From: Bemisia tabaci
Lineage: Eukaryota > Arthropoda > Insecta > Hemiptera > Aleyrodidae
Assembly (NCBI RefSeq): GCF_918797505.1
Contig: NC_092795.1
Coordinates: 18,339,131 to 18,403,130 of the forward strand
DNA length: 64,000 bases
Direction of reading: 5' to 3'
Below, piece after piece: positions 1,191 through 61,912 of the stretch (the stretch's first letter is position 1; every line of letters begins with the position of its first letter). The position numbers and the translations under genes were made by a program. Below the pieces are notes generated by a model. The model was given only the letters and a program-made list of their open reading frames with translations. It did no database searches and was not told the DNA's origin.

Positions 1191-3460
1191 AGTATAGACC
1201 CTTGGTTTGGCGGCACAAGCCGACAATCCGGAGCGGACAAGACGGTGCGGCGCGGCGCGGCGGCGCACAGTGGATCGAGTTAATACAAGAGGTCGAACAT
1301 GAAATTGGTAGCTATAATTTCAAATTTCAATGTTTATTTCGTCACGTCGTAAATTTCAAGGAGTGTTTCTGGAAGAAAATTTCACGATGAAACCAATGGA
1401 ACCACTTTTAGATCCTGAAAATTTTGCGTAAATGAAGTTATAAGCGTTTAAAGTTTCCAAATTTTGTCCGACCTCTCCTATTGACTCGGTCCACCGTGCG
1501 GCGATGCGCGACGCGACTCGGTGGGACTCGTTGAACGGAGGAAAGTGGCACAGACGATTCGGCTGTGACGTCATGACCCCTTCTAAGTAGGCCGCTGCCA
1601 CAGAGCCACGGAGCTCGAGAGCCGCGCTGCCATCGCTGAAAGTGAAACCGGAGTGAATTGCCTGTTGAATCATACGCCATAATAGCATAATAGCTTTTAT
1701 ATCATTCGGCGCCCATCACCATCCATCTCCCATGAATGCCCCGCTCTGCGCTCTACGCACCGAGCAAGACTCCAAGTTCAAAGTTCGAGAACAGAGCCCG
1801 CCCTCTTGCCGGTCCCTTCTTCCCGTCCTAATTGCTCCTTGCCTCCTCCATCCTGTCCCTCTTTCCGAAAAAAGCTCATGGCCGTGAGCATGCACAAAGA
1901 AAATTTCACGTTCGGATCTACGGCAACATTTAACGACTATTCTTGGGCGTGGGAGACCTAGGAGGATCCAAGGGGGGCATAGTGGGCGTACACCCCCCTC
2001 CCTCGTCGCTCGGAAAAGGTAGGGAAGAAAAAGGGAAGGAAGTGAAAAAAGGAGAAACGTAGAAAAGAAGAAAGAGGGACGCTTTTGGTGATTATTCATG
2101 ATGAAATTGACTTAAAACTGCATGTTAGATGCGTTAAAATTTCGAAAATTTACAAGTGGAAGCCCCCCCCCCCCCGACCCCTCTTTCACCCCCTCACCCG
2201 TTCGAAGTGTCTGGATTCGCCTTTGTTTTGTGAGTAATTTTTTAAGACTCTGGAATTCTCGTTGTCTCGTGTATATTTTCGTTGTTGTAAGGATACCAGT
2301 CGAAAAGAGCGTATTCAGTGATGGAAATATACTCATTCATAGATGAAATAACTTTGGTTCACATGACACATCAAAGTGTCCGGTTCGGGTTACTTTAATT
2401 CTCTGTCAAAAGTATCGTTGATTTTGGGAACCAAAGTTTCAGTCAACTATTTTAAGATGCATAATTTGCACCGAAATATTTGATTATCTGAAACCAAAAT
2501 TCGGTAACTACGATCGAAAATTTTGGTTACTTGGGTCGAAAACTGGGGTTTTCAGTAAAACCAGAGACTGGGTCTGTGTAACTAATATTTTTTTCTATGT
2601 AGTCAGGATTTTCAATCGGTTCAAATGAAGTAATCAGCGTAGTCATTCCTTAGATATTTCCTGCAGGAGGTTAGAATAAGGGTGGCGCATAAGGAGCGGC
2701 TGCCATCGCAACAAAGTTTCTAAAATGTGAGGAAAGAAAAAATGTCGTGGGTGAAGAGGAAAGGAAAGATGGAAAGTAGCCACAATTACTAAATTTACGA
2801 AGAATCACGAAAGCTAATTGAAAACACAGTCATCCTATTGTATGGCTTGACTGAACCAATGCAAAATGTGCGATTCTGTTGATAGATATCGTCCACTTAT
2901 ATCTCGCCTTCAATTTTGCCGCATTGGCAAAAAACATACAGAAGATCGCGAATAGTTATCTATTTGGGAAACACACATATCTACCGCTCCAGACGGCCAT
3001 ACCCCATACGCTTTGGTTGAGCCGATGAGGTTAGTTTTTAACCTACTGGTAAGTGGCTTTAATTTTGCTACATAGGCAACACACATACCGGAGGGCACGA
3101 TATTCGAAAAAAATCTAGTGTCTTCTTCCATAAACTTTTCTGAACACATCTTTTGATACTCTGAAATTTGGATAACTTTTGATCATGCGTAATATTGACA
3201 GATATCGTCTACTTGAAGTCCTCCTTCAAAAAACCATGCTATCCATGCTAGACTCAGGTTTTATAAAAGTTTTTCATGACAGTTATTGCCACTAAGGAAA
3301 TTTACTTTCCAAAAAATAAAGTGGTATCATTAACCATAAATTGTATGTGAGTATAAATTGTTAAAATCCCCATCCCTATGCAAAAACACCATTGGTTCCC
3401 AAGTCTGGAACCAGCTAATCCTGATTTTATTCATAACTCCCCAAAATTATAATAATTATT
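1191..3460. other. Intergenic; GC-rich patches and a poly-C run, no supported gene
   Basis: Holds a (CGGCG)-type GC-rich stretch at about 1236-1270, a moderately GC-rich block at 1480-1990 open in several frames but matching nothing I know, and a 13-base C run at 2163-2175. At 2880-3210 two diverged blocks resemble each other (around TTCAATTTTGCCGCATTGGC and TTTAATTTTGCTACATAGGC), suggesting an old local duplication. No splice-bounded coding exon is evident. Confidence 0.4.
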
Positions 3461-3619
3461 TTGCTGGTTCGCACTGACGTTTTCGAGATGGATCCAATTC
3501 GGAATAAGGAAAAAAGGAAGTAAAATTAATGAGGGACGAAGCGGGTGATCAGTAGAAAGTTCGACGCTAATCGGGGCTGAGACGATTCATCGATTAGCCG
3601 ACGCGGATACCGCACAAAA

Positions 3620-3654
3620 ATGTTGTCCGTAATGATGCACGTGCCGGACTCCAG
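3620..3654 (+). CDS. Candidate first coding exon (unrecognised)
   Basis: An ATG in good context (CACAAAAATG) opens a short frame reading MLSVMMHVPDS and runs into a textbook splice donor, CCAG|GTAAGT, with GT at 3655-3656. The upstream 150 bases are richer in CpG (GACGCGGATACCGCAC) than the surroundings, as insect promoters can be. The exon would carry 11 codons plus two bases. I cannot find a matching second exon, and eleven codons are too few to recognise a family, so this rests on the start-plus-donor pattern alone. Confidence 0.2.
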
Positions 3655-4339
3655 GTAAGTGCGACGGAACGTCTAATTTTGACCTCGTGCATTTTTCAGA
3701 ATGGGATTCTCAGGCCGATGACGGCGGTCGCTGAGCTTGTTCGCTTCCATTCATTGGTCCCTCAAGCCGGATATCATATTTGCTTAAGTGTTGCCGCTTC
3801 TCTATGCTCCTTGATAGAGTGACTGATAAAATAGTCATCAAATGCGTATCAATGACTATTCGTTGTAATTCTTCCCTCGTTTTTTCTTTTTTTTTTTGAA
3901 AGAGAAACAACAAATTTGAATCATTTCATTAGATTTTTGGTGTATTTTCATTACTTATTTAAAAAAAAAAATTGTAACCCGAAGAAAAATTACGACTTTC
4001 CGTCTTAAAACAGAACAAAAATCCTTTCCAAGAGGACAAGGGAAGGTAAGGGTTCTGGGTTTTCCTGGTAAAAAAGGGGATTTTTTTTGGGTATATGAGA
4101 GTTTTTTCTGGAATTTTTTTGGGAAATTAACCTCTCTTAAATGCCTCGTGAAATTATTGTCGAACAAAATTCAGCAACATAAAAATTTTGGATTCAAATC
4201 ACCAATAATCCTCGGAAAACATCTCAATTTGGTTTTCTCTTTTCCTGACGCATCAGACAATACAACGATAGAAAAAACTGGTTTTTAGCCATTTTTCTTG
4301 TGCAAATTTTCAAGGGGGATGGAGTGCCGGACGTCACAT

Positions 4340-5060
4340 GATAGAGAAATAGGAGCCACTTTTACAGCGCTCTGGCAATCTGCGACACCTAACCGCCACA
4401 GCGCCCCTTCCTCCCATAGTCTTCTGGGGAGTTGGCACTCCCTCATATTCCATGTGAAACTCCCTGTCACCATCTTTTTACTGAGCATTCCCCTTGGCTC
4501 CTTCCAGGAGAAACCCAATGGAGATGTTGCATATGTGAGGAATTTGCGATTTGACTGTTGATTCTTGTGTAAAAGTTCGCGAGAAACACGATGGTGCCAC
4601 TGGTTTTCTCTGGAATCAACTCCCAAGCTCAAAAGAAGCTCTCAAGTTGAGGCCGAAATGGAGGGGATATCCCACCCTGCCCTGAGAGTCCACCTCTACA
4701 TCAAGACAAACTCTCCATGCAAAGATAGGGAGCAAATACATTAGCAGGGTTGCCGTGTTTTCAGTTTTGGAGTCCCCAAATAAAATGACAGCCCTGTCAA
4801 TGTATTTGCTCCCTATCTTTGCATGGAGAGTTTGTTTTGATGTAGAGGTGGACTCTCAGGGTAGGGTGGGATATCCCCTCCATTTTGGCCTCAACTTGAG
4901 AGCTTTTTTTGAGCTTGGGAGTTGATTTCAGAAAAACCAGTGGCACCATCGTGTTTCTCACGAACTTTTACATACGAATCAATAGTCAAATCGCAAATTC
5001 CTCACACATGCAACATCTCCATTTAGCAACCTCTTTGGCATAGCCTTAATTGCTTCCGTC
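4340..5060 (-). pseudogene. Non-LTR reverse transcriptase 3' fragment split by a foldback element
   Basis: On the minus strand, 4340-4516 encodes MRECQLPRRLWEEGALWRLG, nearly the same as the C-terminus of the RT at 44679 (MRECQLPDNLWEDRALWRLG). The alignment stops at the left edge of the foldback element (4517) and picks up again beyond its right edge with AGCAACCTCT...TCCGTCA (5025-5060), matching the next part of the RT 3' region. The foldback therefore landed in an already decaying RT copy. Not functional. Confidence 0.65.
4517..5023. mobile_element. Foldback (long inverted repeat) element, copy 1
   Basis: About 507 bp, almost entirely two ~235-bp complementary arms around a loop of roughly 35 bases (about 4753-4786). 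The outer end is AATGGAGATGTTGC, repeated inverted at the right end (GCAACATCTCCATT). Each arm also carries GAAACACGATGGTGCCACTGG and GCAAAGATAGGGAGCAAATAC. There is no coding capacity. RNA from either strand would fold into a long hairpin. Related copies lie at 39744-40180 and, more diverged, 14084-14336. Confidence 0.85.
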
Positions 5061-5518
5061 ACTAGTCAAATGACATATTTCAAATTTCGGGGTGGGGGGT
5101 GGACAGGCCCACCTTGATGGATGATGATGATGTTCTCAGTTCATACTGACTGGTAATGAATATCCTACTCTACGATTTTTTACGCGTTTTTGCTACAAGG
5201 GTGATTTCAAATCGACACCCCTCAAATTCTGAACAATCAGAGCCACACGGCGACTAAAGTAGTCCACAAGCGAAAAGAGACCGACTCGTGGGGGGTTCCG
5301 AGAGACATTTCACGAGGGAATCTCGGGAAGCGACGGTGGTGGCGGCGAGGTGGGAAAATCGGATGACGCAACCGCAGATAAGAAATGAAACCAACGAAGA
5401 GCGTGCAGCCCGCGCTGAAGACGTGCGGAGGTAATAGTCCCCGGTCGGTCCACGAGGAGCACTGCCTCGGCCGGGGCGGCGCGGACCAGAAAATCACGGG
5501 ATTTCCTCCGCGCGTGAG

Positions 5519-5698
5519 CTCCCAGCCGAAGACGTCTGGACTCGGGACTGTGGGATGGACACCGACTCGAAGGGGGGGATCGGTAATGACGATGACTGCC
5601 CCGATGATGATGATCGTGCTGACAATGAAGTCGCTGATTGTGATGACGATGATAATGATATCACGTTAGTTGGCCCGACTGGCACAAGTGGTGGGTGG
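5519..5698 (+). CDS. Candidate coding exon, acidic (Asp-rich), unrecognised
   Basis: One plus-strand frame is open from 5438 to a stop at 5717-5719. It encodes a plausible stretch (LPAEDVWTRDCGMDTD) then a strongly acidic segment with DDD and DDDD clusters (about 5582-5660), ending ITLVGPTGTSGG. A GT donor (GG|GTAATT) at 5699-5700 would end the exon in phase 0. A Met codon at 5555 could be the start; otherwise the exon begins after an AG near 5518 or 5525. The block sits in a CpG-rich island (5240-5600), as a 5' exon might. The reverse strand is also open here as a Ser-rich frame, so the strand is not certain. No family is recognised. Confidence 0.27.
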
Positions 5699-5719
5699 GT
5701 AATTTTGTGTGAGAAGTGA

Positions 5720-6169
5720 AAGTTGGCGTGCTAGATTTCTCCTCCTCTGCCCGTCCCGGGCCCGTCTTAGCAGCGTTGCCGCTCCGTGCGCAATTTTACA
5801 CGTATTATTTCTACTCCGTTGAAGAGGAACGTCGTGTGAGCTTTCTGGTGTTGCTAAATATCCTCCGACAAATTACGATTATTCAGGAATTTTTTTTAAT
5901 ATTTTTCCCCAAAATGTCTAATGGCCGATTGTAAGACCTCCGGTCAGGTGCTTGTCAAAGTGGTAGTTTGGAGCTGACCAGAGTTTGACCAGAGGTAGGT
6001 GTGTATGACTCCCGCTTTTCCTCAGGTCAAGTCCCGGTCAGCCTATGTTCTTGCTCGCAAACCAGTGGTTAGACTGATTAGCAGATTGACTACTGGTCAG
6101 AGTCTGACCACTGGTTTGGTGATCAGAGGGCGACAAGAGATCTTACAAACGGTCCTAACTAATTTTCTT
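5720..6169. repeat. TGACCAG-rich inverted motifs; no gene
   Basis: 5940-6130 holds repeated CTGACCAG/CTGGTCAG motifs in both orientations (for example CTGGTCAGAGTCTGACCACTGG split across 6095-6116), suggesting a degenerate foldback. The rest shows nothing recognisable. Confidence 0.35.
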
Positions 6170-23211: not shown

Positions 23212-24081
23212 ATATTGTAATTAATTGATCACGGTTACCGGTAGACTTCTTCTAATTATTGTTGAGATGAGTGCCCCTTCAAAATTTTAACGTGTCAAAA
23301 TTTTTAAAGGCCACTTTCGCAGATAACATCACGTTTCATCAGAGATGTTTGTTCGTTGAATGTGGCTAGCAGAATCACATAAAGCCTGACCGAGCAATTT
23401 TTTTGCGAAAGATTTTAATTTAAATGAACTTCAGTATCTTTTGAGATGCCGTCGCGTTGGGACATATTCATTTTTCTAGCGACCCGAGGAGCGTCCGTGC
23501 TATATGAGGTAAACTCGTACTAAAGAAGGATGTAAGAAGCTGCCTATATCCTTGCAAATGCGTCAAATAAAAGCTAAGAAAGGTCCCTCGATTTTTTTTC
23601 TCATGAACGATAATTTTTGTTTCAGAATTTTGATGTTCATTAACTGTATGGACTTTCTCCATGCCTGACCAAAAGAAGTCAAATCATTTCTCAGCTATCA
23701 ATGTCAGTCACCTGTTATCAGTCATCAATATTACAAAAATTGTTACTTCTATTTTCTTTTGATAATATATTATTATCAATATATATTATATATTATATTT
23801 TCTTTAAATAACTTGGTTTCCTTCTTATTAATGCTAAAAAAGGAGCTAAGGTAATTTGAAGGAAGGAACGAAGAGCACATCTTTCCTTCTGGATTATCTT
23901 CTGGCGAGATCAATTTAGAAAAGGGAATTAACTTAAAAACGATGTTCATGGAGTTCTTCCAAGCCAAAAAAGCTTACTCTTCGTTTGCTAAAAATTTTTC
24001 CGTTAAAAAGTTTTAAGTTAATCAAATAATTTGTGTAGTGCCGATAAAATTTTAAAAAAATGTGCAAAATGCAACAACATA
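23212..24081. other. AT-rich intergenic
   Basis: Includes a nearly pure A/T tract at 23761-23810. No gene or element is seen. Confidence 0.4.
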
Positions 24082-24888
24082 CGAGGGGCGTTCAATAAGT
24101 AAGTATCCCCCCTCTCTAAAATCAATAGGAATGGACCAATTTTCAAAAACTTGGGCTTAAAATCTTTCTTAGTATATACTGAGTTCAGCAAAATAAACTG
24201 CAACAAAATCGGACCATGTGCGGCCGAACGCGAGCCGTTTGAACGCGCCGAGGTGCACACCGCTCCCGCCAAATCCGCGAAAATTTGAAGTCCGCGACAA
24301 GAGAAGAGCTTCTCTGCCAACGCTTCAGTCGTTCATCACTGACGAAAAATCAAAGACGTTTTTGTAGAATACGGTAATAAATGGCAAAACAGACTACTAT
24401 TTATTCCCCTTTCTGAAATCTGAACTGGGGGAGTTCATTTTGAATCAGTGGAAGATGTCAAACAAGCCGTCAACACTTTCATCCCCAGCCGGTTGAAAGA
24501 CCTCTACACGCGTGGTATCCAAAAGCTGTTCTCTTAGTCTCACAATCAGTATCAGACCTGCTTGGATCGAGCTGGTTATGTGAAGAGGTGAAGTAAGTCC
24601 TTTATTCTACAAAACTTCTTTGATTTTTCGTCAGTGATGAACGACTGAAGCGTTGGCAGAGAAGCTCTTCTCTTGTCGCGGACTTCTTTCCGCGGATTTG
24701 GCGGGAGCGGTGTGCACCTCGGCGCGTACAAACGGCTCGCATTCGGCCGCACATGGTCCGATTTTGTTGCGGTTTGTTTTGCTGAACTCAGTATATCCTA
24801 AGGAAGATTTTGAGCCCAAGTTTTTGAAAATTGGTCCATTCCTTTTGATTTTAGAGAGGGGGGATACTTACTTATTGAACGCCACTCG
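24082..24888 (+). mobile_element. Mariner-like element with ~290-bp inverted repeats, internally deleted
   Basis: Both ends read CGAGGGGCGTTCAATAAGTA (right end inverted, one mismatch near the tip) and both are flanked by TA (24080-24081, 24889-24890), the duplication typical of Tc1/mariner. The inverted repeats are very long: 24082-24371 and 24603-24888. The 230-bp centre retains only the 3' end of a transposase frame on the plus strand: FESVEDVKQAVNTF, then YTRGIQKL, an in-frame stop, and QTCLDRAGYV, resembling the mariner C-terminus in which a short GI.KL motif precedes W.KC....G.Y. The catalytic domain is gone, so it cannot move by itself. The short frames across the repeats are not genes. 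Confidence 0.88.
24400..24592 (+). pseudogene. Mariner transposase C-terminal remnant
   Basis: About 60 codons in one frame within the mariner relic, with a stop replacing the Arg/Trp region after IQKLFS and the frame ending at VKR-stop. The DNA-binding and DD(D/E) catalytic parts are deleted. No function is expected. Confidence 0.7.
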
Positions 24889-25407
24889 TAGTATAAAAAA
24901 TTTTCCCTTTCCGCTAAACTCGGTACAAATATATCCCCTAAAGGTATAGTATATGCGATATCATTCCTTAATCAATTCCAGTCCTTAGGAGGCCCTATAT
25001 GATTTACCTTATAATCAAGGCGGGATCAATGAGGCCTTTCATATAGCATCTTGTGTAGGACAATTTTCTCGAACTTCCAAGTAAAAATCAACAGTGTAGC
25101 TTTGTAAAAAAAATCCCCTCAAGAGATTCAAGTGATAATATGCCAAGTACAAAAAAACACAAACTGCTATCTAAAAAGTATTGCGGGTTTTGCAAAATTA
25201 CAGGTTGGCCCGTATCTACCTTAAAATGTGTCAATAGATTATACCTTTTTTTTTGTATTTTTGTCAGAGACGGATAATTGTAATATCTTGCAATGATCCA
25301 TTTTCAAAGCTATGCCGTTGAATTTTACGTGGAAGTTCGGAAAAATTGTCCCTCATATATGATACTATGTGAAAGGCCTCCTTACCTTTCTTTAAGTAAT
25401 AGTATAA

Positions 25408-30085: not shown

Positions 30086-30249
30086 CAGTGGCGTGGCGTG
30101 CTTAGCGATATATTGATTGATCTGCCATTTAAACCTATGGAACAGTATCGATAAACAGGGTGTCCGCAGCGAACACCTTGCTAATCGATAATTTACCACA
30201 GCTTCAAATGGAGAAATATCGATAGATCGAAAAGCACGCCATGTCACTG
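30086..30249. mobile_element. hAT-type MITE with perfect 8-bp target duplication
   Basis: 164 bp; left end CAGTGGCGTGGCGTGCTTAG, right end AAGCACGCCATGTCACTG. The flanking octamers are identical, TGTTGTAC at 30078-30085 and 30250-30257. An 8-bp duplication together with CAGTGGCG-type ends points to the hAT superfamily. Interior: GGTGTCCGCAGCGAACACC, a short perfect-looking palindrome, and ATCGAT motifs. Confidence 0.92.
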
Positions 30250-30715
30250 TGTTGTACGTCCATCTTTTATTGGAGTACCACATAGTAAAAAATCCAAGGT
30301 TTGCAAAAACTTTCGTAGGTTCTCTGTGGGTTACCCCCTTCCCCCTCCCTACCATAGTGGTTGAAATCTAGGAGACCAAATTTTGAACTTTTTTGACCTC
30401 ATTCCTCAAAACGCAAATACTGGAAACTTCTTGAAAACTGTCCACAAGAAAATGGATGAGTGTAATTAATCCTCAATTTATTTTTTAAAAATAAACCGTA
30501 GTAAAGTAAAAACTAAAATTTAAAAAAGTGTTTGACATTAAAAAATTGCTTATCTAGGTTTAAACACATATGATAATGGATTGTATAATTTCACTGAGAG
30601 AAAAAAATACAATAGAAACAATGAATTGATTGAATTCACGAGTACTCCTAGGAGCTCTGAAGTGAAGTGGAATAACTCCTCGTAAGAACTAAGATCGGAG
30701 CATAAATTAACGGTA
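30250..30715. other. No recognisable gene or element
   Basis: AT-rich; minus-strand frame 30071-30355 mostly overlaps the MITE and is not a gene. Confidence 0.4.
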
Positions 30716-31526
30716 CACGGACTTTATGTCCACTTTTTTTACGTCCACAGACTTTTCGTCCACAATTTTTATAATAGCAGCGCAGAAAGCGCACTGGCGC
30801 CTACAAACCTAACGGGATACTTCACGCATTGCGCGACGCGTGAAGTATCCCGTTAGGTTTGTAGGCGCCTATGCGCGTGTCACGCTGGTTGCCTGCCGCG
30901 CCGCAACGCTTTAAGCAACTATTTCGCGTCAGAGGCGTTGCACAGTATCCTACAAGATTGAGGGAGCACGAAATAACTAGTTAAAGAGGACTTTCAATTT
31001 TGACTGCATCTGTTACTGAAAAATGCTTAATTTGGCATTGGAGCGTTTCCTAGGCTCCCGCTTTGGTTTTCATCTTATCATATCCATACAGTGTACACAT
31101 GAACATATGAACATATGTTTTTATCTGCTCTTAGAGTCTGTTCTCTTTCATGACTTGATTCATGAATGAAATGTTTTTAAGAATGAAGTACACCTCTCTC
31201 GATTTAAAAATCTGAATTTTCGTATATACTCCCATTTTAAAATTCTCTGTAAAGACGTTAAAAGCCTGTGACGTTGAACGTCTTAATATATACTAACTAA
31301 CTAACTAGTAGTAGTATGCATTTATTTTTGAGGTGGTTCCTGTCATTTAAATGAGAAGAAAAAAATGTGGACATAACATGCCCACAATTTGGACAATTTT
31401 GGACATATTCATGGTTGGACATTAAATCATGTGGACTTAATAAAGACTGGACTTAACGTTTAGTGGACATTAATAGCGGTGGACATTTATTTAATGGACG
31501 AAAGGTAGGTGGACATAAAGTCCTGG
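30716..31526. mobile_element. TIR element with repeated GTGGAC motifs, ~810 bp
   Basis: The ends share GGACTTTATGTCCAC (left, 30719) and GTGGACATAAAGTCC (right, ending 31524), followed inward by TTTCGTCCA and its complement. Near both ends GTGGAC/GTCCAC recurs at least a dozen times (30730-30765, 31365-31515), giving short sub-terminal repeats. AAATTAAC occurs just outside both ends, at slightly different distances. The interior contains the palindromic GC-rich unit at 30777-30975. No transposase frame is visible. Confidence 0.7.
30777..30975. repeat. GC-rich palindromic unit (32-bp arms, 10-base loop) plus tail
   Basis: 30796-30827 and 30838-30869 are perfect complements (GGCGCCTACAAACC...ACTTCACGC) around ATTGCGCGAC. 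A tail follows with GCCGCGCCGCAACGC, AAGCAACTATTTCGCG and GCACAGTATCCTACA, also present after the palindrome at 36539. Same unit family as the tandem monomers at 61231 and 45716. Confidence 0.85.
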
Positions 31527-31633
31527 AAGCAAATTAACTGAACTTTTTCGATCTAAGCATGCCTGCCAAACCTGGCTAATCTAAGCTCACAACCTAACTA
31601 GCCTAACCTTACAAATTCTAACCTACTCGTGCC

Positions 31634-32073: not shown

Positions 32074-32239
32074 CAGTGGCGTGGCGTGCTTTGCGATACG
32101 TATCGATTCATCTGACATTTGAACCTGTCGAAAAGGATCGATAAACCGGGTGTTCGCAGCGAACATTTTAATAATCGATTACTTAACACAGCTTCAAATG
32201 GGGAAATATCGATGGATCGAAAAGCACGCCACGCCACTG
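32074..32239. mobile_element. hAT-type MITE, intact ends, perfect 8-bp target duplication
   Basis: 166 bp with ends CAGTGGCGTGGCGTGCTTT and AAAAGCACGCCACGCCACTG, flanked by TCCCACAT on both sides (32066-32073 and 32240-32247). Interior GGGTGTTCGCAGCGAACA and CAGCTTCAAATGGGG as in the other copies. This is the best preserved copy and probably among the youngest insertions here. Reading frames over it are not genes. Confidence 0.93.
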
Positions 32240-36034: not shown

Positions 36035-36090
36035 CTTAAATCAGTACTGTGTTCAGAGGTAATGTATTGCTCACAAATGATGCGCCTCCA

Positions 36091-37023
36091 CCCTGGTAAA
36101 AATTGGCGAAAGGAGCTGCGTTTCAAAATACCATAGGAGTTCTTATAGCCGACTGAAGAAGGCGATAGAAAATCATATAGCTGGCTGTAGAAAGCGGAGC
36201 AAATCATATTGCCGGGCTATACGAAGCTATAAAAAAGTATACAGTCGGGCTATAGTTCCTATCGCCGGGCTTTACACTTTATCGCCATTGGCTATAATAG
36301 GCTATAAGATATTGTGTAGAAATTCGTGTGCTTTGGAAATCATTAAGTTTGATACGGAACTACCTTAATATTTACAAAACACACACTATATTTTCCTTTA
36401 AAACATATTTTTTTTCATCAATTAAAATGAGAATAATCCATACAGAGTGTGCAAGCATTTCAAAATCATGAGTTGAAAAACGCTGACTCCGCGAGATTAA
36501 ATATTGGAGCCTAACACAAAGCGGAGCGGCGACGCACTGGCGCCTACAAACCTAACAGGGATACTTCACGCATTGCGCAATGCGTGAAGTATCCCTGTTA
36601 GGTTTGTAGGCGCCAATGCGCGTTTCGCACTCTCTGCCCGCCCGCCGCGCCGCAGCGTGCCACGGCGTCTGAAGCAACTATTTCACACCAGAGGTATTGC
36701 ACAGTATCATGAGAAATTGAAGGCGCTCCAACTTATTAAGAATGACAGGCATCCTTCAAAAGTACGGAGCTTTCCTCGCAAAATAAATCAAGATACTACG
36801 GCACAAAAAGAGAGCGGTAGTCCAAAAACTAACTAAGTCCTAGTATCCGTATTTTGTAACGTTTAGCATAAACTTTATCGTCTGGCTGTTGCTTAATCGC
36901 CATCGGCTATAAAAGGCTATAAGAAATTGTACAGCCGGCTACAGAAGCTATTGAAAATCTTACAGCCGACTTTAGGTCTATGGTATTTTGGAACACAGAT
37001 TCTACTGCCAATTTTTACCAGGG
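36091..37023. mobile_element. TIR element with CCTGGTAAAAATTGGC ends, ~933 bp
   Basis: The ends CCCTGGTAAAAATTGGC and GCCAATTTTTACCAGGG are near-perfect inverted repeats continuing inward (TTTCAAAATACCATAGG against CTATGGTATTTTGGAAC). Sub-terminal regions are full of degenerate GGCTATA/TATAGCC repeats (36140-36310 and 36890-36980). The centre holds the palindromic GC-rich unit at 36520-36730. No transposase is visible. Confidence 0.8.
36520..36730. repeat. GC-rich unit carrying a perfect 76-bp palindrome
   Basis: 36539-36614 is a perfect palindrome with no spacer: 38 bases starting GGCGCCTACAAACC are followed at once by their exact complement, centre ATTGCGCAAT. The tail (CGCCGCGCCGCAGCG, AAGCAACTATTTCAC, GCACAGTATCATGAG) matches the one after 30869. 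Inserted inside the TIR element at 36091-37023. Confidence 0.9.
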
Positions 37024-37700
37024 CAGTCTTGTGATTATAAAAAATGCTACATATTATGGGTTCCGGTTACAAGTGCAGTTACTACGGTTGTACGAATGGA
37101 ATGGTGCCGATAGGTTAAGGTGCTGTTGCAGCATTATGATGATTTCCACCCCTTTTTAAAATAATTTTTCTTTCGGTATGGTGGTAACAAACTGTAATAA
37201 AATTCCGTTGAATATCTCGATAAATTTTTGCCTGAATTTTATCTTCCTTCATGCATTGCCAGGTGAAATATCAATATTTCTCAACCAGCAGCCCTTTCTT
37301 CCCTTAACCCTTTATTGCATAGCGTTGCATAAAAGCATCAAATGGTTTTCAGCTTTATTTCTATGCTGGAGTATTAAATTGCATCAAAGCAAGAAATAAT
37401 TTTTAGGGAACTTATATGTCTGATCTCCTTGCTTAGAAAAAACCATAAAAATCGATTCCAACCGACTATAGTGTCAAAAAATACTGTGCAGTGTAGATTT
37501 TCTCTCCAAAATCAACGATTTGCTCATGCAAAAAGCATATTTCGCAAAAAGCAGCTCATCGATCACGGCTGATTTTGGGGGCAGGCTCAGCGGAGCGAAA
37601 GTTATGGGTGGTATCGAGGGTGGAGGGCAGCTAACGTTCCTGCGCAGGCAGTGCTCAAATGCGATGCACTAATGACCTGATTATTCTTCATTTTCTCGGC
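37024..37700. other. No recognisable gene or element
   Basis: AT-rich; the frame at 37178-37399 is unrecognised and has no splice context. Confidence 0.4.
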
Positions 37701-40564: not shown

Positions 40565-41812
40565 GTGACCTCGATTCCTATGTAATTTTTGACGCTGAAT
40601 CCGAATTTCAACTTTGCGCCATTAAATTCGGACCGGAAAGTTGCCAAATTTGGCAAAAATGGCCTAAAATCGGACTTTTTTCCGGATTATGGCCTGTAAC
40701 TTGCCAAAAATTGATCTGACGATAAAATTAGTTATTTTCAGAAATAAAGCTCGTTAAATTTCCTATAAAAAAGTTCCTATAAACTTTTTTGCTCAAGGCA
40801 AAATCAAGCGCGCTGGCGGGCTCCGAACTTTGTAAAATGTGCGAAAATTGCGCATACTGTAATGTGTTGGGTTATCCTTATTATTTACATCAATTCATTT
40901 CACTAAGTGTAAATTTTATCATCTTCACTTAATTTGTCCAGAAATTACTCGTCGGACGATTAAAACAGGAGACATCGGGCAAAAACCGCGAAAAACACAA
41001 TTTTTGCTCATTTTTCAAAGTTCGGAGCCCGCCAGCGCGCTTGATTTTGCATTGAGCAAAAAAGTGTATAGGAACTTTTTTATAGGAAATTTAACGAGCT
41101 TTATTTCTGAAAATAACTAATTTTATCGTCAGATCAATTTTTGGCAAGTTACAGGCCATAATCCGGAAAAAAGTCCGATTTTAGGCCATTTTTGCCAAAT
41201 TTGGCAACTTTCCGGTCCGAATTTAATGGCGCAAAGTTGAAATTCGGATTCAGCGTCAAAAATTACGTAGGAATCACTGAAAGCATTACTACCCGGGATT
41301 TTTGCAAAAACCGCAAAAAAAACGCAATTTTCGTTCATTTTTCAAAGTTCGGTGCCCGCCAGCGCGCTTAATTTTGCCTTGAGCAAAAAAGTGTATAGGA
41401 ACTTTTTATGGGAAATTTAACGAACTTTTTTTTTAAAACAACCAAATTGTCGTTAGATCAATTTTGGACGAGTCACAGGCCATAACCCGCAAAAAACCAA
41501 ATTTTCGCTCATTTTTCAAAGTTTGGAGCCCGCCAGCGCGCTTGATTTTGCCTTGAGCAAAAAAGTTTATAGGAACTTTTTTATAGGAAATTTAACGAGC
41601 TTTATTTCTGAAAATAACTAATTTTATCGTCAGATCAATTTTTGGCAAGTTACAGGCCATAATCCGGAAAAAAGTCCGATTTTAGGCCATTTTTGCCAAA
41701 TTTGGCAACTTTCCGGTCCGAATTTAATGGCGCAAAGTTGAAATTCGGATTCAGCGTCAAAAATTACATAGGAATCGATGAAAACATTGCTACCCGGGAT
41801 TTTTGCAGGCTA
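40565..41812. repeat. Array of ~300-bp repeat units in both orientations
   Basis: Four copies of one unit: an inverted copy at about 40565-40855, then direct copies at about 40980-41302, 41303-41480 (missing its distal half) and 41481-41812. Landmarks are AGCCCGCCAGCGCGCTTGAT, GATCAATTTTTGGCAAGTTA, TTTGCCAAATTTGGCAACTT and CTACCCGGGATTTTTGC. The first and last copies are nearly identical over ~230 bp, including the 41110-41270 and 41600-41765 segments, so duplication is recent or homogenised. The frame at 41129-41338 is a by-product of the repeat. Confidence 0.9.
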
Positions 41813-44678: not shown

Positions 44679-45389
44679 TTATAGCGCTCTTTGACGCTTT
44701 GCGACACCTAATCGCCACAAAGCTCGGTCTTCCCACAGGTTATCAGGGAGTTGACACTCCCTCATCTCACTTAACACCCCCTGTCGCCAACCTCTCACTG
44801 GGCGTCCCCTACGCCTCCTCCCAGGAGGAACCCAATCAAGCATCTTTTTTGGCAGCCTCTCTTCCGTCATCCTATTGACATGACCATACCAAACAAGTTG
44901 TTTGGTCATGACGTCGAACACGATGTCATTTTCGACTTCCATTATCTGACGCACTCTGTCATTACGGACCCGATCTCTCCTAGAAATTCCTGCCGACCTT
45001 CTCCAGAAATCCATCTCCGTTGCTCTTAGCATATCCTGTGTCCGTTTCTTCAGCTGCCAAACTTCACATCCGTACGTTAATATACTTTTGACTACAGCGT
45101 TGTATATCCTCCTCTTGTTATCTTTGGAAATCCGCTGATCCCAGAGGATTCCATTTAACATCGCTATAGCCTTCCTTGCTAAGGTGTTCCTTTCCCTGAT
45201 AGCTTGATCCGTCCTTCCATCCTGGGTCAACCGCACTCCCAAGTACTTGAAGTGCTCGCAGCATTTGATCTGCTGCCCATCCTCCAACTCAATGCTTTGC
45301 TGATCACCACCAAAAGTCATCTTCTCAGATTTGGATATGCTGACTTCCAAACCCCACTTCCGATATTCTTCTACTAACTTGCGCATCAT
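44679..45389 (-). pseudogene. Non-LTR retrotransposon reverse transcriptase, C-terminal part (5'-truncated)
   Basis: 236 codons are open and end in a stop. The product belongs to the non-LTR retrotransposon reverse transcriptases, which copy element RNA into DNA at a nicked chromosomal site. What remains is the end of the palm and the thumb/C-terminal region: ISKSEKMTFGG, YLGVRLTQDGR (about residue 49), ILTYGCEVWQLKKR (108), MDFWRRSAGISRRDR (131), VWYGHVNRMTEERLPKKM (167), then a basic stretch GRRRRGRPVRGW. The catalytic YXDD box and the N-terminal endonuclease lie upstream and are missing: the similarity stops at about 45392 and ordinary AT-rich DNA follows. 5' truncation is usual for such insertions. 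The first Met is simply the first in the fragment. The frame is intact, so it is younger than the four fragments at 97, 4340, 20001 and 21730. Clade not assignable from this part alone. Confidence 0.88.
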
Positions 45390-45715
45390 GTACTTTTTAC
45401 TAAACCAAAATTAATTTTAAGCTATTCAAGTTCCAAAATCGCTGCATCGTTTCAACATCGTCCGAGTTTCTGAATCGTTGCAATTAAGATACATATTTAC
45501 CCTTTAATTGGGATAAAAACCGGACAGGGACCGTCAAAAGAAATTCGCGTGGACCTAGTTTAGCGGCGATTTCAGCGTCGCGCGAGCCAGGGAAGGGAGT
45601 GCGCAGTGCGGTCGAGTGTCGAGTCATCTTCACAGTAGTGTGTTGCGCTTTCAATCCAGCTAGCGGCAATGTGCCTATGCCCATGATCGAATAGTTATCG
45701 TTTCTCTCGCATTGC
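45390..45715. other. No recognisable gene or element
   Basis: Sequence upstream of the truncated retrotransposon; nothing recognised. Confidence 0.35.
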
Positions 45716-45858
45716 GTTTGGTGCAATGCGAGAAGTATTCACGCAGTCTTGTAGGCGCTGACGCCGACCGCACTATTTGACGCAACACATGAAGTATTCC
45801 GGTAGTCTTGCAGGCGCTGATATGAGTTAGAGGCCGACTGCACCGTGTTCGGCGCAAT
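45716..45858 (-). repeat. Two diverged tandem copies of the GCGCCTACAAGACTGCG unit
   Basis: On the minus strand GGCGCTGACGCC...and CGCCTACAAGACTGCGTGAA-type monomers are visible twice (plus-strand GAAGTATTCACGCAGTCTTG TAGGCGC at 45730, and GAAGTATTCCGGTAGTCTTG at 45789), followed by GTGTTCGGCGCAATTATTTG. Orientation is opposite to the array at 61231. Confidence 0.65.

Positions 45859-46614: not shown

Positions 46615-46666
<52 letters not shown>
46615..46666 (-). repeat. 52-base poly-T (poly-A tail on minus strand)
   Basis: An uninterrupted T run of 52. On the minus strand it follows AATAAA (46696-46691 region, within CAAGCAATAAAGTTAGC) by about 25 bases, the usual spacing of a polyadenylation signal and tail. 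It therefore looks like the 3' end of a retrotransposed transcript lying at higher coordinates. Confidence 0.7.
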
Positions 46667-57922: not shown

Positions 57923-58544
57923 GAAAACTAAAAAAATGGAAATTTGCGGTTTTCGCACGACACGATTCAATTGATGAATGCCTAACCCTTGTCACTTACC
58001 ATGAGTTCATTCTTTTTAGTTAATTCTGAGTTTATACGATGTTAAATTAATTGGAATTGCCATGTTCTGGTCTGATAACTTTTTTCTTGTGTGAATAGAG
58101 GCTGACATTGGCAAATCATTTTCACATTCAATCTTGTCCTGATAGAACGCTCGAGGAAAGTCTTGATAAGTGTTAAAGTTGAAAAAAAAAAAAAAAAAAA
58201 AAACAGACTCGAATCAACAGCTTAAAAGTCAAGACTGATCGAAGTTCATGAAAGGAAATTTTCCAGCATTGTCTCTTCTTGATCAAAAATAATGAAAGGA
58301 GTAGCACCTTAGAGAGTCAAGTTCAGGCAAAAACCATAATTGCTCATGGTAAATCTACTCAAAAAATAAAAGATTCTTTATCAAATCGACATTCTTTTAA
58401 GGACTTTAAAATGATAGAAGACTGTCTCTGAGCACTGATACAAGAAGAAAGTATGTAGTCTCTACATATCCGATACTTTATTATAATGAACCCCCTAACA
58501 GTAGCTCACATGTCAAATAGTACGGCTGTAACGTTTTCGTACCG
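57923..58544. other. Intergenic with a 22-base poly-A
   Basis: A22 at 58182-58203 could be the tail of a retrotransposed sequence on the plus strand, but no AATAAA lies just before it. Nothing else is recognised. Confidence 0.4.
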
Positions 58545-58760
58545 CACAAAACGCCTTCACTCCGCGTCCAATAGATACTTTTCTTCGTGCAAGAGCTATT
58601 GCATCCGCACATTTTGAAGGAAATTTATCGAGGCGCAAGTGTCGCTAACGCACAAAACGCCTTCACTCCGTGTTCCAGAGGTATTTTTTTGCGTGCATGA
58701 GTTGTTGCATCCGCTTATATTGAAGGAACTTTATCAAGGCATAAGTGTCACTTCGCTGAT
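58545..58760 (+). repeat. Tandem duplication, two ~105-bp units
   Basis: ACAAAACGCCTTCACTCCG at 58546 and again at 58653 start two units sharing AATAGATAC/AGAGGTATT, GTGCAAGAGCTATTGCATCC / GTGCATGAGTTGTTGCATCC and TATTGAAGGAACTTTATCAAGG. The units are relatives of the arm of the element at 7.1-9.45 kb (AACGCCTTCAACTCCGTGC). Confidence 0.75.
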
Positions 58761-60700: not shown

Positions 60701-60892
60701 CTGCAATGGTCAGTCGCCTAAGGGAAAGACTGACCCTGCCCTGAACCAATTTTCAATTTCTTCCGGTTTTATTCTTATGAGTCGGATAAAAAATTTATCA
60801 ACCGGTGTTTCGCGGTTCATTTTAAATTCCTCTTTTAGTAATTGAGGGATACCACAAAAAGTACCATTTGGTCGTGAAAAACTCTCTCCAGT

Positions 60893-61758
60893 CAGGGCCG
60901 GATTAAGGGGGTGGCCACATGGGCCGCGGCCCATGGCGGCAAATCTAGGAGGCGGCAAATTTTATAAATGTAGGTATAAAAAAATCGGATTTAGAAAAAA
61001 AAATTACAAACGAGAAAAGGCTACAAAATCTCTCATTTCCTGAGAGTATAGTAATTTATAATTTTGTCGTCTTTCAGTGATACAAGAGACAGCACCTTTA
61101 ATTAGTCGAGTTAAGAGAGAAACCAAACACACAATTTAGCCTGGACCGGGACTTAGGGAGAAATGATGACGAGGACTTGAGATGAAAAGGAGAAGCCCTC
61201 GGCGCGGCAATCGGCATGTAATACATATTAGCGCCTACAAGACTGCACGAATACCTCACGCATTCCATCAAACACAGTGCGGTTATTGTGGTCAGCGTGA
61301 AACGGATAGCGCCTACAAGAATGCATGAATACTTCACGCATTGCGCCAAACACAGTGCGGTCAGCGTGAAACGCATGGCGCCTACAAGACTGCGTGAATA
61401 CTTCACGCATTGCGTCAAACACGGTGCGGTCGGCGCGGCGGCGGGAGTTAAAATCATTAAACCAAATTTTGTGTTTGTTCTCTCATAATTTTTTCGTTCA
61501 TTTCTTATGAATGGAAGGCCTTTTCCATTAGAGATAGGTTTACGAAACTTGATTTTCGCGCAAAGTTCCGTGACCTTTTGCTAGTAGTGTTGACAGGGCT
61601 TTCTCAAAAAATGTGTTCAACACGAGTAAACGCGTCTTATGCACCCCTCCCCCGCTGGTACGTTCACTTGATGTTTTTATTGATGTTTCAAAATAGATGA
61701 GAAGGGGGCGGCAAAATACAGGCGGCCCATGGGCGGCAAGTAAAAAAATCCGGCCCTG
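60893..61758. mobile_element. hAT-type element, 866 bp, non-autonomous, with 8-bp target duplication
   Basis: Left end CAGGGCCGGATTAAGGGGGT, right end AAAAAAATCCGGCCCTG. Near both ends GGCCCATGGCGGCAA and GGCGGCCCATGGGCGGCAA recur inverted. The flanking octamers are TCTCCAGT (60885-60892) and TCTCCAAT (61759-61766), seven of eight identical. No transposase frame is present. The interior carries three tandem copies of the GC-rich unit (61225-61447). CAGGGCCGG-type ends plus 8-bp duplications are typical of hAT. Confidence 0.87.
61225..61447 (+). repeat. Three tandem copies of the GCGCCTACAAGACTGCG unit
   Basis: Units begin at 61231, 61309 and 61378 (spacings 78 and 69). Each reads GCGCCTACAAGA, TGAATACTTCACGCATTGCG, AAACACAGTGCGGTCAGCG. 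Each contains the short palindrome GCGTGAATACTTCACGC or a variant. Short frames through them on both strands are repeat artefacts. Confidence 0.88.
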
Positions 61759-61912
61759 TCTCCAATGCTTCATTTCCTTCATCACAAAATCGCATTTCAA
61801 TGGCTGGACCTCACAGGCTTACCATTAGTATCTCAATATGCCTTCATACTCTATTGTGTTTGCACAGAGGAGTCTTTCTACAATCGACTATTCTACGATC
61901 GTGCATCGTTTT

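Follow-up and report, generated by a model that had tools for sequence, protein, structure and literature searches.

Satellites borne by transposons are a known kind of repeat, and several described systems resemble the one reported here. For example, miDNA4 of Xenopus tropicalis is described as a Tc1/mariner MITE with either a single internal satellite monomer or an array, for which capture of a pre-existing tandem repeat has been proposed (PMC12628747, PMC9659126). The Xstir MITE repeats, also from Xenopus, are tandem repeats described as arising from, or riding on, the interior of a MITE (PMC12628747, PMC9659126). In Tribolium castaneum, segments of the major pericentromeric satellite TCAST form part of TIRs and are reported in the CR1-3 retrotransposon as well (PMC3411249). 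In Crassostrea gigas, the same type of array is described both inside different Helitron/Helentron elements and outside them (PMC12628747).

We analyzed a 64,000-nt stretch of DNA (the window) of the whitefly Bemisia tabaci, which occupies positions 18339131-18403130 of one contig in an assembly of 609,955,014 bp. A profile search built from the monomers of the window placed a GC-rich monomer of about 70 bp in nine copies at four sites, with E values of 4.8e-20 to 4.4e-13 (the next best match had E 0.8). Elements A and B each contain two monomers as an inverted pair, site C contains two, and element D contains three in a tandem array. An initial annotation of the window had named these four sites, and the profile finds the unit at every one of them; its view that the fourth lies outside any definable element also stands, as no element could be defined around site C. 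The features are given below in window positions.

30704-30711 and 31531-31538, no strand: left and right target-site duplication AAATTAAC of element A, exact over 8 bp, from sequence comparison with family copies
30712-31530, plus strand: element A, a putatively non-autonomous TIR element, internally deleted copy, with ends GGTACACGGACTTTATGTCCAC ... GTGGACATAAAGTCCTGGAAGC; it matches positions 1-60, 883-1293 and 1295-1519 of a 1519-bp relative (L009)
30771-30775, plus strand: junction of the ~820-bp internal deletion in A, which ends just left of the inverted dimer, from comparison with full-length relatives
30778-30887, plus strand: inverted dimer in A, head-to-head monomers without spacer; arms 30778-30832 and 30833-30887, 84% complementary
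30888-30967, plus strand: GC-rich tail of the core in A (AAGCAACTATTTC...GCACAGTAT), the right end of A/B homology
36089-36090 and 37024-37025, no strand: left and right 2-bp duplication CA of element B, read by eye
36091-37023, plus strand: element B, a putatively non-autonomous TIR element, with ends CCCTGGTAAAAATTGG ... CCAATTTTTACCAGGG
36320-36726, plus strand: 407-bp core in B, common to full-length A (81%), from sequence alignment
36533-36620, plus strand: inverted dimer in B, without spacer, arms 98% complementary
45708-45836, minus strand: site C, two decayed tandem monomers (45767-45836 and 45708-45763) from the monomer profile; part of a third apparently extends up to ~45862, by eye
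60885-60892 (TCTCCAGT) and 61759-61766 (TCTCCAAT), no strand: left and right target-site duplication of element D, matching at 7 of 8 positions, by eye
60893-61758, plus strand: element D, a hAT-type, putatively non-autonomous element, with ends CAGGGCCGGATTAAG ... AATCCGGCCCTG
61212-61430, plus strand: three tandem monomers in D (61212-61283, 61293-61361 and 61362-61430), from the monomer profile

As far as the published accounts describe these systems, each shares some traits with the whitefly elements. Like miDNA4, the whitefly carriers are putatively non-autonomous TIR elements with an internal satellite monomer whose copy number varies among element copies. However, miDNA4 is one MITE, while the whitefly monomer occurs in three families with different ends, two of which hold a head-to-head inverted dimer inside a larger common core. 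The TCAST elements are alike in that satellite monomers, one of them inverted, lie in a dispersed TIR element with target duplications and in another element type besides; the whitefly monomers differ in being internal rather than in the TIRs, and no major satellite was seen in 264 kb, comprising the window and a random genome sample. As with the C. gigas arrays, one repeat type recurs in several element types and outside them, but those carriers are of the Helitron rolling-circle type, whereas the whitefly carriers have TIRs and duplicate 8 or 2 bp of the target. Like Xstir, the whitefly tandem repeats ride on a MITE interior; unlike A and B, no single core common to elements with different duplication lengths features in the Xstir descriptions. 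To the known cases, the whitefly adds a single monomer carried by three families, two of which, with duplications of 8 bp and 2 bp, have a 407-bp core in common. The repeat family is new, and the sharing of a core between element families is unusual. None of the literature matches listed on whitefly repeats, MITE-borne repeats or shared interiors contained an earlier description of this repeat, and among the matches listed for papers containing 11-mers of the unit, none was by title on whitefly repeats. The word satellite is absent from the main text of a Bemisia transposon survey (PMC9017028).

The three carrier families

Element A has inverted ends, with mismatches in the outermost bases, and a constant 8-bp duplication, as non-autonomous TIR (MITE-like) elements do. 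The duplication was exact in 17 of 21 copies with both ends, the window copy included, and matched at 7 of 8 positions in three others and at 5 of 8 in one; it was sought within 3 bases to either side of the ends, and a control on random pairs gave 5 exact matches in 2000. A whole-genome search with the A unit yielded 2135 first-look candidates, the best 40 of which were scored, including the window copy; all 40 matched at near full length with at least 98% identity, and the 30 loci fetched from these 40 all belong to one element family. The flanks of these 30 loci contained no further monomers at E 0.001. A full-length copy (L009) measures 1519 bp, with ends of the GGTACACGGACTTTATGTCCAC ... 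GTGGACATAAAGTCC type, and its palindrome is 144 bp long, with 72 bp per arm at 82%, which is one monomer length. The window copy is a deletion derivative of this ~1.5-kb element, with about 820 bp gone between 30771 and 30775, and its longest open frame is 53 aa. A separate insertion of the unit at 30771/30775 was considered and rejected, since full-length relatives show a deletion junction there.

Several further observations were made on A and its surroundings. Six copies (L001, L010, L013, L025, L027 and L028) have in common an extra segment of ~115-135 bp at reference position 1294, which marks a subfamily to which the window copy belongs. Left of the unit, 15 internal deletions or truncations were counted, and six of them (L001, L003, L017, L020, L024 and L026) end within 76 bp of the unit, at positions 829-887; this may reflect selection, since the search needed an intact unit, and a hotspot at the palindrome edge is possible. 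The window copy is itself surrounded by a 168-bp inverted pair (30086-30249 and 32074-32239, 73%). Relatives of this pair were found in several random stretches (e.g., L033, L036, L037, L038 and L048), which places A between two members of a different repeat that is also abundant.

Element B is likewise a putatively non-autonomous TIR (MITE-like) element, with inverted ends of 46 bp and a duplication of 2 bp. The duplication was read by eye in all four copies with both ends (CA in the window, CC in L039, TT in L051 and CT in L052) and, being short, is weak in any one copy; two further copies, L034 and L053, have one end damaged. The longest open frame in the window copy is 91 aa. In the B-unit search, the best 40 of 1260 first-look candidates were scored and all matched over the full length at 98% or more, and the three loci fetched were all B elements. 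One B copy (L034:1790-2747) appears by eye to be nested in another element of the CAGGGCCGGATT type, seen at its left flank.

Element D carries a CAGGG-type terminal motif, which we take to be that of hAT elements. Its duplications are 8 bp long, as in the hAT superfamily; among the three copies read by eye, they are exact in both L048 copies (CTTTTTTG and CGACCGCG) and match at 7 of 8 positions in the window copy. The monomers of the window array are spaced 78 and 69 bp apart. With the whole of D as the query, the best 40 of 5943 first-look candidates, the window copy among them, span 841-889 bp, and the other 39 have 92-94% identity; this query contained the monomer array and so favors filled copies. 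In the random genome sample, each of the four assessable D copies (in L036, L043 and two in L048) has its two or three monomers at a constant position; the fifth (L039) runs off the end of its stretch and was left out. The longest open frame in the window copy is 160 aa. A protein search with a frame on the minus strand matched six proteins from ENA contigs at E up to 1, five of them below 1e-10 and one at 0.01. None of the six carries a Pfam domain, and by eye each consists of D-type flank plus at least one translated monomer, so D-type arrays are present in other sequence sets.

A common core and the turnover of its arms

The likeness between A and B extends well past the monomers. Positions 668-1075 of full-length A (L009) align with 36320-36726 of B over 407-408 bp at 81%, and no other same-strand alignment was found between this copy and the window copy of B beyond this core. 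In this core, AT-rich sequence of about 200 bp is followed by the inverted dimer and a GC-rich tail. The A unit and B unit alone align at 79% over 194 columns (E 2.7e-41), and the initial annotation had drawn the likeness as a unit of ~200 bp with a shared tail of ~100 bp; the deletion in window A had hidden about half of the A/B similarity from it. Its extents are replaced here by 30712-31530 for element A and by the ~407-bp core that the full-length relative reveals. The annotation had also described an architecture that changes from hairpin to perfect palindrome to tandem array. The tandem array in D is confirmed, but the first two are not different forms, both being one inverted dimer.

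Profiles of the core-left segment and the tail, searched against the window and the random 200 kb at E<0.01, found the B copies, the window copy of A (tail only) and one relic in L038 at E 1.4e-5; site C reached only E 0.46. In L038, the diverged core-left segment lies beside three decayed tandem monomers, which suggests that the module predates both A and B and was once housed elsewhere. The different duplication lengths, 8 bp in A and 2 bp in B, suggest that the two families with this core depend on different transposases. The monomers themselves fall into two types by mean pairwise identity, an A/B type (90% within) and a D type (86% within), with 69% between them; judged by these values, the monomers of D are clearly related to those of A and B, yet of a distinct type.

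The number and orientation of the arms vary within the B family. Three B cores of odd length were fetched (L054, L055 and L056) and considered together with L039 from the random sample. Here, the gap is the interval between the two element arms. L054 (gap 328) is without about 80 bp, which comprise the palindrome center, the right arm and the start of the tail, and L055 (gap 369) has a single monomer arm. In L056 (gap 457) and L039, an extra direct copy of the left arm stands ahead of the palindrome. Thus, single, inverted, and inverted-plus-direct forms of the monomer all occur in B, and tandem forms are found in D and L038. Two changes are found in both arms: the 1-bp indel by which A and B differ, and in L034 an A-to-T change. 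Across the A and B copies compared, 34-39 of 40 arm positions pair, and L034 has six mismatches. The symmetric changes fit a correction between arms through the hairpin, but this evidence is weak, since differences in one arm are at least as common in the same copies.

Carriage by descent and its alternatives

To find whether A and B exist without the core, we searched with their arm segments joined directly, so that an empty copy should rank first. The A query had 592 nt (parts of the arms, with 267 bp from the left side of the core and 325 bp from the right), and the B query had 526 nt (both whole arms). None of the 32 A copies with both arms among the best 40 of 2453 candidates was empty (gaps of 360-632 bp, 408 commonest), nor was any of the 38 B copies with both arms among the best 40 of 4138 (gaps of 328-507 bp, 407 commonest); scoring was ranked by similarity and took in 40 of 1260-5943 candidates per search, so empty relatives of greater age may have escaped. 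Copies with only one arm, eight of A and two of B, were left out of these counts. Among the copies compared, the unit has one fixed internal position per family, and inspection by eye of the window sites and the A/B alignment revealed neither a duplication nor a terminal repeat or tail at its own ends. A and B carry the unit by descent.

The random sample comprised twenty 10-kb stretches (200 kb), which together with the window make up 264 kb of the 610-Mb assembly. It contained eight monomer sites (in L033, L034, L036, L038, L039, L043 and two in L048), of which D copies account for four, B copies for two, and other sequence, in L033 and L038, for the rest; two marginal L038 matches (E 0.002) were left out. 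Across window and sample, nine of the 12 sites are inside copies of A, B or D, which cover 2.9% of the 264 kb, and three (site C, L033 and L038) are outside. Since the assessable family copies in window and sample carry the unit, this association reflects descent and not repeated insertion. The initial annotation had proposed a small mobile or satellite-seeding sequence that targets, or is spread by, other transposons. Spread by other transposons is borne out by the unit's fixed place inside copies of A, B and D. Satellite-like is also apt for a tandem or inverted ~70-bp monomer which, as in the transposon-borne satellites of the miDNA4 and TCAST kind, keeps a fixed internal position and varies in copy number (two to three in D, arm loss and gain in B). 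It had suggested a check for enrichment inside TIR elements; the sites are concentrated in the three families, but this is no sign of targeting, since the unit is carried by descent. Targeting fails for A and B, where none of the 70 scored copies with both arms was empty, and nothing points to it for D either, of which empty copies may exist, given a whole-element search that favored filled copies and four of four random-sample copies with monomers.

The most probable reading, in our judgment, is that the monomer is a satellite-like internal passenger, inherited in at least three abundant non-autonomous DNA transposon families (A, B and D), with the core passed between families by repair capture and then amplified. 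Transposases acting on the ends of the carriers would move A, B and D, whose target duplications are 8, 2 and 8 bp, respectively, and the monomer would spread with them. Template switching during the repair of excision breaks can fill transposon interiors with foreign sequence. By such a step, a broken transposon copy repaired with a switch into another element, the core would have reached one of the two lineages, A or B, from the other, or both of them from a common donor, after which each family would have been amplified by transposition. Neither donor nor direction of transfer emerged among the copies compared, nor was microhomology or an intermediate seen at the core boundaries in the A/B comparison. 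D may have acquired its monomer by a like process or by capture of a pre-existing array, and template switching driven by the hairpin, along with slippage, could change the number of arms and tend to keep two arms alike.

Compatible with this reading, a conventional genomic satellite in long arrays elsewhere may have been captured separately by D and by the A/B core. The related but distinct monomer types of D and A/B are in its favor, and the published model for miDNA4 has a MITE capture a tandem repeat that already existed (PMC12628747). However, no array of more than three monomers was found in the 264 kb, an absence that counts for little as assemblies often omit long arrays, and we regard a separate capture as possible but on the unlikely side. 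The core could instead be an old, mostly dead mobile element that was inserted once in the ancestor of A and once in that of B and then inherited. It is nearly constant in length in both families, homology stops on both sides of it in A and B, and the core-left segment with tandem monomers in L038 lies outside either family; yet no duplication, inverted repeat or A-tail is visible by eye at its ends in A or B, and that one relic is all that falls below E 0.01 in the 264 kb besides A and B copies. We consider an old insertion unlikely.

Alternatively, A and B might descend from one ancestor whose ends were swapped, with the core the oldest part and the terminal repeats newer, as the internal position of the core in both, and the alignment of a full-length A copy with window B over the core only, would allow. 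A change of ends would, however, also need to change the duplication length (8 rather than 2 bp, or the reverse), and no intermediate was seen; we consider a swap of ends quite improbable. It is a little more doubtful again that the core with its inverted dimer is a module that aids its carrier. As a hairpin, for example, it might help replication or repair-based copying, or else escape or influence silencing by small RNAs; families with different transposases would have acquired it and since grown to thousands of copies. As for a small mobile unit with an insertion preference for TIR elements, the concentration of sites in a small fraction of the sequence is what such a preference would produce. 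But 70 copies with both arms and none of them empty, a single position per family, flanks and architecture that differ between D and A/B, and unit ends free of duplications by eye all speak against it, and we regard it as highly improbable.

With the monomer taken as an inherited passenger, the window offers a well-resolved case of one short repeat in transposon families with different insertion signatures, in several forms within one genome. It allows tests of how interiors are exchanged between transposon families, and of how satellite monomers are seeded, change orientation and change number. It also urges caution, as a short repeat may recur inside several transposons without any mobility of its own. 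Since B or D copies contain six of the eight sites in the random 200 kb, scattered monomer sites in a whitefly annotation would seem to be mostly parts of transposons. Eight sites per 200 kb would correspond to roughly 24,000 in 610 Mb, with a wide error.

Monomer sites outside the families, and other repeats of the window

By mean pairwise identity, the decayed monomers of site C are closer to the D type (75.9%) than to the A/B type (64.9%). The same is true of L033 (78% to D and 65% to A/B), where two monomers lie beside a fragment of another repeat family. Site C adjoins a fragment of a non-LTR reverse transcriptase on the minus strand (44679-45410), which has no Pfam match itself but some of whose relatives carry PF00078. 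Site C was considered as part of this LINE fragment and rejected, as the matches of the fragment's relatives stop at ~45395. An RNA gene was likewise rejected as an account of the palindrome: no part of the window matched Rfam at gathering thresholds, and a palindrome by itself accounts for the low folding energy (z -8.18). The unit was also sought in viral and prokaryote contigs by pattern scans, none of which matched.

Other repeats were noted in the window. Two tandem copies of a 106-bp unit, with 82% matches, lie at 58543-58749 and were not found by the monomer profile. A run of 52 T at 46615-46666 is possibly the tail of a retroposed sequence. Two further elements, at 40571-41778 and 24080-24890, have inverted arms that are very long and alike (279 bp at 99% and 292 bp at 95%, respectively) and are probably recent elements of the foldback type.
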